Assembly: GCA_019637675.1 (NCBI GenBank)
Contig: JAHBVE010000002.1
Location: 333,797 to 397,796, forward strand
Reading direction: 5' to 3'
DNA: 64,000 nt
From: Anaerolineales bacterium
GTDB taxonomy: Bacteria; Chloroflexota; Anaerolineae; Anaerolineales; UBA11579
The notes beneath the pieces were generated by a model, which was given only the letters and a program-made list of their open reading frames with translations, was not told the origin of the DNA and searched no databases. Positions 51,939 through 58,983 of this stretch are shown piece after piece. Position 1 is the first letter of the stretch. Every line of letters begins with the position of its first letter. Made by a program: the position numbers and the translations under genes.

Positions 51939-52165
51939 TGTCATTCCGAGCGGGTTTATCAGCCTACACCAGACCGCCGAACCCGCTTCAGCGAGGAATC
52001 CGTATTGGCATTTCTTCCGAATTCACTCAGACGGATTGAGACACAAACCGTCCCACAACGGATCCCTCCTCGGCCTTTGGCCTCGTTCGGGATGACAAGC
52101 TTGGGGATTGCTTCGTCGGCTGAAAGTTGCATGAACATGCAACTTTCAGCATTCCTCGCAATGAC
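51939..52165. repeat. Cluster of dispersed palindromic repeats
   Basis: Three elements fill the gap: TGTCATTCCGAGCGGG...GCGAGGAATCCGTA (51940-52005), ACGGATCCCTC...GGGATGACAA (52053-52097) and GATTGCTTCG...CTCGCAATGAC (52106-52165). The last encloses a perfect 15-bp hairpin, GCTGAAAGTTGCATG / CATGCAACTTTCAGC (52119-52150). No gene is seen here. Confidence 0.65.
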
Positions 52166-54857: not shown

Positions 54858-55154
54858 ATGGATGCCAACACATTGCAGACCCTGGCCACGGCGCTGACCA
54901 TTTGGGGGGCTACCTTCGTTCTGGCCTTGTGGGCCAGTTTGGTGTACTGGACCCACCGGGACGCGGCCGCCCGGCTGCGGGAGCCGAGCCGCCGGCTGCT
55001 GGCGGTGCTGCTCTCGGTGATCTTGTTCATTCCAGGGGTGCTCATCTACATCCTGCTGCGCCCGCAGCGCACGCTGGAAGAGGAATACTTGCTGACCCTG
55101 GAAGAAGAGGCGCTGCTGCGTGCGATCGAGGAGAGCGAGAGGAGACACGGGTAA
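54858..55154 (+). CDS. Small two-helix membrane protein, unrecognised
   Basis: 98 residues. Two membrane helices (about 10-30 and 47-65) then an acidic C-terminus (RTLEEEYLLTLEEEALLRAIEE), possibly helical. It resembles phospholipase-D-nuclease N-terminal (PLDc_N) membrane proteins by layout. TATAAT (54845-54850) is seven bases before the ATG, fixing the start and predicting leaderless expression. The longer frame upstream is not supported. It is divergent from the kinase operon. Confidence 0.72.
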   Translation: MDANTLQTLATALTIWGATFVLALWASLVYWTHRDAAARLREPSRRLLAVLLSVILFIPGVLIYILLRPQRTLEEEYLLTLEEEALLRAIEESERRHG

Positions 55155-55463
55155 GCCAAAGGCGAAGTGAGATTTTTGAATGCAGATTTCTGATTTTGAT
55201 TGGAATTATGGCCAGGATGACTTGAATGACCTGGCGCGCCCCCCTTTTGCTGCCAGGTTAAAACATTTACCGCTAAAAAATTGACTGTGGCACGGCTAGG
55301 CTATGGGTGTATCAACTTAACCCCATCCCGCTCAGCTACGCAGCCGGCTGACACCAAGCGAACAGCCGCCCGCGGCCAGCGAACCAGGCCGCGGGAGCAG
55401 ATATAGCAGGGAGTGTGGGCTGGCGGGTGGATTGGGGCGCGGTGCTAAGCGAGAAAAAACGTA
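55155..55463. other. 309-base gap with GC-rich hairpin, possible small RNA
   Basis: A TTGACT at 55281 has no good -10. Around 55367-55398 there is a strong CCCGCGGCC / GGCCGCGGG stem, and GCAGCCGGCTGA is another self-complementary stretch. No open reading frame looks coding, and no tRNA-type T-loop is present. Composition is GC-rich, unlike the adjoining AAA-PIN cassette. A structured transcript is possible but unproven. Confidence 0.3.
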
Positions 55464-55925
55464 CTAAATTTCATCAGCAGCTATAACAAATACACTAATA
55501 AGTCTCTCTAAAGTCTTCCGAACATTAGTGGGGAAATTACGAAAGTCATGTGAAACCAATGTGCCTGTATTTGTATACCGCGCAACCTTCACGAATGTTG
55601 AATCGGTTTTATCATGGACATGTTGTCGGATAACTTTATTAGTAGCGCTATCGGTTTGCTTAGGCTTCTCATTAATTCTTTGATTGGTTCCTAAAACCCC
55701 CAGCACATAAAATGCAAAACTACCATGATGCACATGAGTTAAGTATTCATGAACAATACTACTTCTATTTTTGGCATTTTCAATTGAAAAGCCGGGGTCC
55801 ACGCAAATTACATCATCATGCTCTAATAATCCCGACACAAGAGCTAGAGCACTCTGATGTTGAACAATAGCCTCATTGTTTGCATGTACAAAAATATTTG
55901 TATCAATTACTAGTTCTCTTGGCAT
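55464..55925 (-). CDS. PIN-domain nuclease, partner of the AAA ATPase
   Basis: 153 residues. The acidic PIN quartet is visible: D8 (VIDTNIFVH), E60 (SSIVHEYLT), D108 (KTDSTFVKVA) and D127 (VSHDFRN), compatible with a metal-dependent ribonuclease. The start overlaps the ATPase 3' end by 23 bases, with AAAGGAA upstream, so the two are coupled. Base composition is AT-rich like the ATPase and unlike neighbours. No antitoxin gene is adjacent; the ATPase may instead regulate the nuclease. Confidence 0.85.
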   Translation of the reverse strand: MPRELVIDTNIFVHANNEAIVQHQSALALVSGLLEHDDVICVDPGFSIENAKNRSSIVHEYLTHVHHGSFAFYVLGVLGTNQRINEKPKQTDSATNKVIRQHVHDKTDSTFVKVARYTNTGTLVSHDFRNFPTNVRKTLERLISVFVIAADEI

Positions 55926-57282
55926 TTTTCCTTTTATTTCCCGCCCTTGATTGGCTTATAGCTAGTCCAAAAGCTTCTTTTAAAGATTCGCCAAAAAAAC
56001 CCATTGGCCAATCCTGCTCATTAATATGCCCAGCGTCATTTATTGGAATATTCCGGACTTGCGAGCCAGAGGACCGTTTTTCCACAAAAAGAATTGAGAC
56101 TTGATCTTTTTTTATCTTACCTTCTGCTATAAGTCTACGAAGTCGCAATAGCAGATGCTCGCTATGGGTTTCGAGGATAACATTTTTGTCTTGGTTTGCA
56201 ATCTCTACAAAGAGATCTGACAACAAAACTTGCAGCCTAGGATTAAGATGTATTTCCGGTTGCTCACAAATTATCAATGAGCCCTTTGGGGAGCGCGTAC
56301 CCTCTACGATGAGGGGCAAAACTTGTGAAAGACCTGATCCAGTATCAAATAGATTACCAATTGGAATGTTCTTGTTTCCCTTTAGTTCTAAGTGGAATGT
56401 ATTATTATCAGGACCATTTCTTGGACTCAACTTTCCACCAAAGTCAAATTTTTCCGTCCAGAAATCAAGCCACCTCTTTTGACTTGTTGTACCCCCACGA
56501 GCAATAATTTCGGGAGCATTTTGTCCCTTGGCACCAATGTTCTGTGGAGCCTCTCCTGAAAATTCGTAAAATCTCTTAAATGGTTCGCGCAATGGGCCAA
56601 TATAGCTAATGCGCTGAAAGAAATCTTCAATCAACTCTGCCATAGCAGAAGCTGCTGCAAAATAAATAAATTCCCCGCTAGTGAAGGTTATTCCCTTTTG
56701 ATTACTCTTTTTGCTTTTACTATGCTTTCGAAGGATTCTTTGGATTGCATCCACGAAGTAGAAATGCTTCGGAGTGTCTTTTAGAATCTCTGCCTTGATC
56801 TCCTTTGTCAATGTACCCTTGGGGCGAAAATTCAAAGAATAGTAGTCTTTCTGTTTTGTGCGAGACAACATAGCTCGACCAAATATGTCCTTAACAAAAT
56901 ATCGAGAGAGTTGGATATCATTAGGAACTACTCCTTCAGCTTTCTCAAACAAGGAGATAAATTCACCTGGAGGTGATTCGCCAACTTCTCCCTTTTTCTT
57001 ACTGTTGCTATGAACAAATCTGATATCTAAAGATAGTTGCTTATTGGGATCATGATTGTGGACAAAGTCTTTGAACAGGCCAACGTCAATCAAAGGTCCC
57101 TTAGTCATTAGTGCGGTAGTCACATCAGACGACTCCAAAGTTTGCTTCAATAACAACAGTGGGGCGATTAAACTGGACTTCCCAGAATTGTTAGGGCCTA
57201 AAACTATTGTGAGTGGTTTAATTTCTACCCACCCCGTGTCCGCAAAGCATCTAAAGTTTTTCCACCTAAATATTGGTTGCAT
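55903..57282 (-). CDS. ABC/OLD-like AAA ATPase with DUF3696 C-terminus
   Basis: 459 residues. Walker A GPNNSGKSS (29-36), signature GSGLSQVLP (315-323), Walker B IICEQPEIHL (337-346), H-loop ETHSEHLL (371-378), and C-terminal DWPMGFFGES (424-433), the DUF3696 hallmark. A basic, Lys-rich middle segment (about 184-198) may contact nucleic acid. There is no TOPRIM or nuclease domain fused. One sample line (56701-56760) has 21 G+C of 60 bases; one in enolase (57721-57780) has 35. TAGAAT is six bases before the ATG. Confidence 0.88.
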   Translation of the reverse strand: MQPIFRWKNFRCFADTGWVEIKPLTIVLGPNNSGKSSLIAPLLLLKQTLESSDVTTALMTKGPLIDVGLFKDFVHNHDPNKQLSLDIRFVHSNSKKKGEVGESPPGEFISLFEKAEGVVPNDIQLSRYFVKDIFGRAMLSRTKQKDYYSLNFRPKGTLTKEIKAEILKDTPKHFYFVDAIQRILRKHSKSKKSNQKGITFTSGEFIYFAAASAMAELIEDFFQRISYIGPLREPFKRFYEFSGEAPQNIGAKGQNAPEIIARGGTTSQKRWLDFWTEKFDFGGKLSPRNGPDNNTFHLELKGNKNIPIGNLFDTGSGLSQVLPLIVEGTRSPKGSLIICEQPEIHLNPRLQVLLSDLFVEIANQDKNVILETHSEHLLLRLRRLIAEGKIKKDQVSILFVEKRSSGSQVRNIPINDAGHINEQDWPMGFFGESLKEAFGLAISQSRAGNKRKNAKRTSN

Positions 57283-57294
57283 AGACTAATTCTA
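57283..57294 (-). promoter_or_regulatory. Leaderless -10 of the AAA-PIN cassette
   Basis: TAGAAT (57294-57289), six bases, ATG. The element matches the resident leaderless genes although the cassette itself has foreign composition. Confidence 0.55.
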
Positions 57295-57305
57295 ACAGGC
57301 TACTG

Positions 57306-58983
<1,678 letters not shown>

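Follow-up and report, generated by a model that had tools for sequence, protein, structure and literature searches.

Directly behind eno, in the 64,000-nucleotide stretch of DNA analysed here (hereafter the window), lie two genes encoding an ATPase and a putative PIN nuclease. This arrangement raises the question of whether the two genes form a mobile module directed against invaders or serve some other purpose, and of how their products might act together.

Organization of the locus and variation among sister genomes

An earlier note, written from the sequence alone, had described a coupled ATPase–nuclease cassette at positions 55464-57294. Both open reading frames are present in that stretch, although its end overshoots the ATPase start by 12 bases. 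The ATPase gene, identified by its ORF, Pfam domains, motifs and predicted structure and encoding a 459-aa OLD/ABC-type protein with a DUF3696 C-terminus (the proposed sensor or regulator), occupies 55903..57282 on the minus strand. The gene for the 153-aa PIN-fold nuclease (the proposed effector), identified by its ORF, Pfam, its predicted structure and matches to solved structures, occupies 55464..55925 on the same strand. The ORF coordinates reproduce exactly the claimed 23-base coding overlap between the two genes (55903..55925, minus strand), and the pair does lie just after eno (enolase; 57306..58658, minus strand; defined by its ORF and by sister-genome comparison), with 23 bases separating the eno stop codon from the start of the ATPase gene on the shared strand. 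The AT-rich composition ascribed to the cassette is equally clear: with GC contents of 0.37 (PIN) and 0.40 (ATPase), these are the two most AT-rich of the 63 ORFs in the window, for which the next-lowest value is 0.53 and the mean 0.62. Scans for promoters and terminators gave results near chance level. The ATPase gene may ride on the eno transcript, and such co-transcription would offer no hint of tight control over a toxic gene.

Comparison with sister genomes places the pair in a variable spot (55236..57305) that reaches from the eno stop codon, its right border, to a conserved small gene on the plus strand (MDANTLQTLATALTIWG...; 54858..55154), which forms its left border and is also found in sister genomes. 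Sister genome G407 has flanks that are 92-93% identical; homology to it ends at 55235 and restarts at 57306. The interval between eno and the small gene differs among sister genomes of the genus, holding a kinase cassette in G404, a HerA-like ATPase in G407, and zinc-ribbon and DnaJ proteins in G406 and G401. Furthermore, the window ATPase was absent from all 10 other genomes of the genus that were searched, three of which are less than 80% complete. The segment beside the cassette occurs a single time in the genome, and no convincing repeats or insertion marks were found at the cassette borders.

The coordinates of four sister-genome spots (L067 5483-8211, L068 5661-7829, L069 5581-6971 and L071 5765-7153) delimit differing AT-rich cassettes, encoding a 222-aa protein with a kinase (PD-T4-6-like) and a 401-aa protein, a 722-aa HerA-like ATPase, or zinc-ribbon/DnaJ pairs. 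One sister genome has, next to HicB-like ORFs, a second copy of part of the eno 3' end (L071 7466-7537), which may mark an insertion there. Elsewhere in the window, an element of ~160 bases (51939-52098) is repeated in tandem several times in a sister genome (L071 1582-2260).

Taken together, the lowest GC content in the window, the absence of the ATPase from the 10 other genus genomes searched, the variable spot and the distribution of the pair's closest relatives over five phyla (described below) argue for horizontal spread. The flanks do vary between related strains, as the earlier note had anticipated, and horizontal acquisition of the cassette into a variable spot gains support from the low GC, the G407 breakpoints and the absence elsewhere in the genus. 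Judging from these sequence comparisons, we take the region behind eno to be a cargo spot and the ATPase-PIN pair to be a horizontal acquisition. An ordinary chromosomal pair that sits downstream of eno and serves RNA processing or housekeeping, uninvolved in conflict, could share the eno strand and begin 23 bases after eno, as this pair does; its AT-richness, its absence from all other genus genomes searched, its patchy clade over five phyla and the other cassettes that fill the spot in sister genomes make such a reading highly improbable.

Sequence and predicted structure of the two proteins

Pfam searches of the ATPase return AAA_15 (2e-23), AAA_21 (4e-16) and DUF3696 (PF12476; 4.1e-8), all above curated cut-offs. 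The Walker A, Walker B, H-loop and DUF3696 end attributed to it were all found, and its motifs are conserved in 83 homologues. On the minus strand, these features comprise Walker A, GPNNSGKS (residues 29-36; 57175..57198), in which G29, G34 and K35 are invariant; an ABC signature-like motif, GSGLSQ (residues 315-320; 56323..56340), with invariant G315 and G317, and S319 in 79 of 83; Walker B, LIICEQPE (residues 336-343; 56254..56277), with E340 in 83 of 83; the H-loop, THSEH (residues 372-376; 56155..56169), with invariant H373 and S374; and the DUF3696 segment (residues 390-437; 55972..56115). In its domains, Walker A, signature, Walker B and H-loop, the protein has every hallmark of a DUF3696/OLD-type ABC ATPase. 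Within the EQPE sequence, the residue that adjoins the Walker B glutamate (Q341) is glutamine in 78 of the 83 ATPases. Should Q341 occupy the catalytic position, one might guess that hydrolysis would be slow and an ATP-bound assembly long-lived, as would suit a holding role.

The predicted structure of the ATPase (pLDDT 86.6) presents the ABC-type head fold of SMC, Rad50, the retron and Septu PtuA proteins, and Gabija GajA. Its last helix (residues 431-457), modelled at low confidence, may serve to bind a partner.

The predicted structure of the PIN protein (pLDDT 94.4) is matched over its whole length by solved PIN proteins, the best matches being VapC toxins (7vwo, Z 9.9), followed by PIN-type protein-only RNase P. 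It is this predicted fold, together with conserved acids, that identifies the protein as a PIN nuclease, its sequence profile alone falling just under the Pfam cut-off (PIN_3, 1.2e-4); a sequence search of solved structures with the window PIN returned chance matches only. Among 83 paired homologues, D8 (55902..55904, minus strand, as for all the following) and D108 (55602..55604) are conserved in 83, E60 (55746..55748) in 81, and D127 (55545..55547) in 81, being otherwise E. The four acidic residues previously picked out thus withstand comparison with relatives, and a fifth that had been missed, D43 (55797..55799), is likewise present in 83 of 83.

Conserved pairing across bacterial phyla

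ATPase homologues were gathered without regard to the nuclease, yielding three sets: those in 33 of 400 genomes of the phylum (the window's own included), those on 14 plasmid records, and the best 80 of 553 loci from a scan of ~85,000 species genomes. The window PIN and its counterparts in the first set served to build a PIN profile, which was then tested on the independent set of the best 80 of 553 loci. In this third set, a PIN gene lies directly downstream of the ATPase gene in 74 of the 78 loci with downstream DNA, and a single PIN match was obtained among the 4,927 ORFs elsewhere in these loci. The lone extra match (L104) adjoins a shortened PIN gene, and the two may be halves of a single broken gene. 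Three of the four loci without a PIN gene have another short ORF in its place, and in the fourth no ORF was called. Overlap between the ATPase and PIN genes is seen at 81 of 92 PIN-paired loci and most commonly spans 4 bases (47 loci). ATPase and PIN distances are also strongly correlated (Mantel r 0.886, compared to 0.22 for the largest of 2,000 permutations), with residue conservation scored on the 83 paired homologues. The adjacency of ATPase and PIN genes exceeds chance, and both this adjacency and the correlated distances support the coupled module and the conserved pairing that the earlier note had proposed.

Direct searches with the window PIN against viral contigs, plasmids and the 400 genomes of the phylum returned only its self-match; the protein is too divergent, so that its relatives were reached only through the ATPase. 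A direct search of viral contigs with the ATPase returned no match.

In a tree of 104 ATPases, obtained by quick searching with a single support measure, the window ATPase falls in a 9-member clade (SH-aLRT 100) with representatives in the Chloroflexota, Armatimonadota, Acidobacteriota, Pseudomonadota and Bacteroidota, all of them with PIN partners. Two of the nine ATPase frames are truncated; a contig end is the probable cause in one, and a broken frame in the other. Among the eight nearest loci, a type I restriction system clearly lies beside one and conjugation genes beside another, the Pfam tally around the rest, which gives counts without locus names, being made up mostly of metabolic and housekeeping families. 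A more distant DUF3696 relative is found in the P2-like provirus P2-EC5, paired with ORF333. Other DUF3696 ATPases (L019, L020, L024, L025, L027, L033, L036 and L155) likewise precede a different kind of partner, of ~300-350 aa, to which ORF333 also belongs; the two examples tested (L033 and L036) matched nothing in Pfam or PADLOC.

An RNA ligase gene in related loci

In the plasmid pairs of Azotobacter, Aeromonas and Rhodococcus, the next gene encodes an RNA ligase (Pfam PF09414 in all three). Of the ~95 loci with enough downstream DNA, 49 had an RNA ligase gene immediately behind the PIN gene when searched with a profile built from these three plasmid ligases; this share of about half describes a sample ranked by similarity to the window ATPase and is not a census. 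The KxDG motif is present in all 49 ligases. Ligase loci cluster on the ATPase tree (8 changes, versus 34.7 in shuffles), and the profile found no ligase after the PIN gene in any of the nine loci of the window clade. A ligase supplied by the host was also considered, and the window's genome (93% complete) contains no PF09414 and no RtcB match. Loci carrying the ligase include L081, L084, L085, L088, L091, L093, L096-L099, L101, L102, L105, L109, L111, L113 and L114, among others, as well as plasmid loci L032, L034 and L035. The RNA ligase as a third gene is new here; an earlier description of the ligase or of the clade may exist in the source paper of the HEC names.

The position of the RNA ligase gene beside that of the nuclease suggests RNA as the substrate of the nuclease, and breaks that can be resealed. 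It also bears on whether the pair might defend by cutting invader DNA or phage mRNA directly, with the ATPase loading on DNA ends or structures, in the manner of Rad50/SMC or Gabija, and directing the PIN protein. The resemblance of the ATPase head to Rad50, SMC and GajA is what such a reading would predict, but PIN nucleases are mostly RNases, and ligases carried by about half of the sampled relatives better fit damage to cellular RNA; we therefore regard direct cutting of the invader as improbable.

Relationship to known systems

The earlier note could put no name to the arrangement. Two precedents do exist: HEC-03, a PADLOC candidate, and the OLD-ABC/PIN dyads of a 2026 survey (PMC12839542). 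PIN partners from the Chloroflexota match HEC-03A with values up to 3e-47, plasmid pairs score 367-445 bits with HEC-03B and 3e-23 or lower with HEC-03A, and related pairs match HEC-03B to 1e-133. As judged by these profile matches, HEC-03 is a DUF3696-ATPase/PIN pair, and the arrangement is thus already catalogued as a defence candidate, in keeping with the earlier note's view of a candidate defence or toxin system. The window pair shares with HEC-03 its two genes and their order, a DUF3696 ATPase gene first and then a PIN-type gene that overlaps or abuts it. In PADLOC, however, the window ATPase scores 192 bits with HEC-03B, compared to 367-445 for the plasmid HEC-03 ATPases, and matches PDC-M55A better (205 bits). 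No HEC-03A match was obtained for the window PIN (up to E 10) or for six clade relatives. By the PADLOC models, the window pair is not a HEC-03 member, HEC-03B being other than its best model and HEC-03A unmatched, and no PADLOC model recognises the PIN proteins of the window clade well. The sequence evidence nevertheless indicates that the ATPase-PIN module is real, mobile and conserved, a variant of the catalogued candidate HEC-03; the pair recurs in many bacterial phyla and is a probable anti-virus module.

Some other HECs have been reported to be active (PMC12988326). Neither a mechanism nor a test of anti-phage activity was found for HEC-03 in the literature searched, which did not contain the source paper of the HEC names. 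The 2026 survey described OLD-ABC ATPases paired with PIN endoRNases in BREX loci and proposed them as a suicidal back-up effector (PMC12839542). The pairing is common to both, but there it is a category next to BREX, with DUF3696 unnamed, whereas the window pair is a stand-alone cassette.

Several other systems share individual features with the pair. The AriA profile of PARIS, in which an ABC ATPase partner likewise controls a nuclease, matches the window ATPase at 3e-28; the PARIS effector AriB is, however, a Toprim nuclease, and the PIN partner rules out membership. The profile of NsnB, which we take to be a Menshen component, matches the window ATPase equally to HEC-03B (192 bits). In Menshen, a DUF262 gene accompanies a predicted OLD nuclease (PMC10952713). 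The cassette of the window carries a PIN gene in its place, and apart from the ATPase and PIN genes no substantial minus-strand ORF lies between eno and the small gene, which rules Menshen out. Septu and the retron PtuA-PtuB pair have in common with the window pair an ATPase head fold and a two-gene ATPase-nuclease logic, but their nuclease is HNH, and Septu membership is ruled out on the partner gene.

VapBC systems share with the window PIN both the nuclease fold and the acidic site. Their small DNA-binding antitoxin contrasts with the large ABC ATPase of the window, and VapBC membership is ruled out, given that the upstream partner of the PIN gene encodes this 459-aa protein. The small gene on the other side of the PIN gene is on the opposite strand and stays in sister genomes that do not have the cassette. 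In a broader sense, the pair might still be an addiction module, with a VapC-like PIN toxin and the ATPase as its antitoxin, acting as a selfish stabiliser without phage sensing. The closeness of the PIN fold to VapC, the overlap of the two genes, the presence of relatives on plasmids and the variable, mobile location would all fit this description. We nonetheless consider it unlikely, since so large an ATPase, with its nucleotide-binding motifs conserved, bears little resemblance to the small DNA-binding VapB, the ATPase is the only partner of the nuclease, relatives are catalogued as defence candidates, and the RNA ligase that relatives carry as a third gene is not known as a component of VapBC.

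Predicted mechanism and significance

The reading that we favour, and hold to be fairly probable, is that the pair is a HEC-03-like anti-invader module, acquired behind eno, in which a predicted ATPase-gated PIN RNase would stop growth or translation upon a phage trigger. In this scheme, the OLD/ABC-type ATPase, assembled in its ATP-bound form, would bind and restrain the PIN protein. A phage-derived trigger would alter the state of the ATPase, so that the PIN protein is freed or activated, and the latter would then cut RNA (tRNA or another structured RNA), leading to a stop in growth or translation. We infer complex formation, the direction of control, the trigger, the RNA substrate and the role of the pair in defence; RNA is the expected substrate because of the PIN fold and of the RNA ligase in related loci. 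A defence role draws support from the PADLOC candidates, from the restriction and conjugation genes each seen at one of the eight nearest loci, and from the provirus relative; the mostly ordinary surroundings of the nearest loci, the lack of any PADLOC match for the window PIN and a possible shared transcript with eno weigh against it. The closest precedent understood in detail is PARIS, in which a hexamer of the ABC ATPase AriA sequesters AriB and sensing of a phage protein leads AriB to cut tRNA (PMC12409363; PMC12839542).

More tentatively, DUF3696-PIN pairs might constitute a broad family of ABC-ATPase-gated RNases, in which a large branch with a resealing ligase would impose a reversible arrest and the ligase-free clade of the window a one-way arrest.

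These analyses link the HEC-03 candidate to a testable mechanism, in which an ABC ATPase would gate a PIN RNase and to which about half of the sampled relatives add an RNA ligase gene in third position. Furthermore, they reveal a clade, spread over at least five phyla, whose nucleases escape the PADLOC models, and surveys relying on PADLOC therefore probably undercount it.
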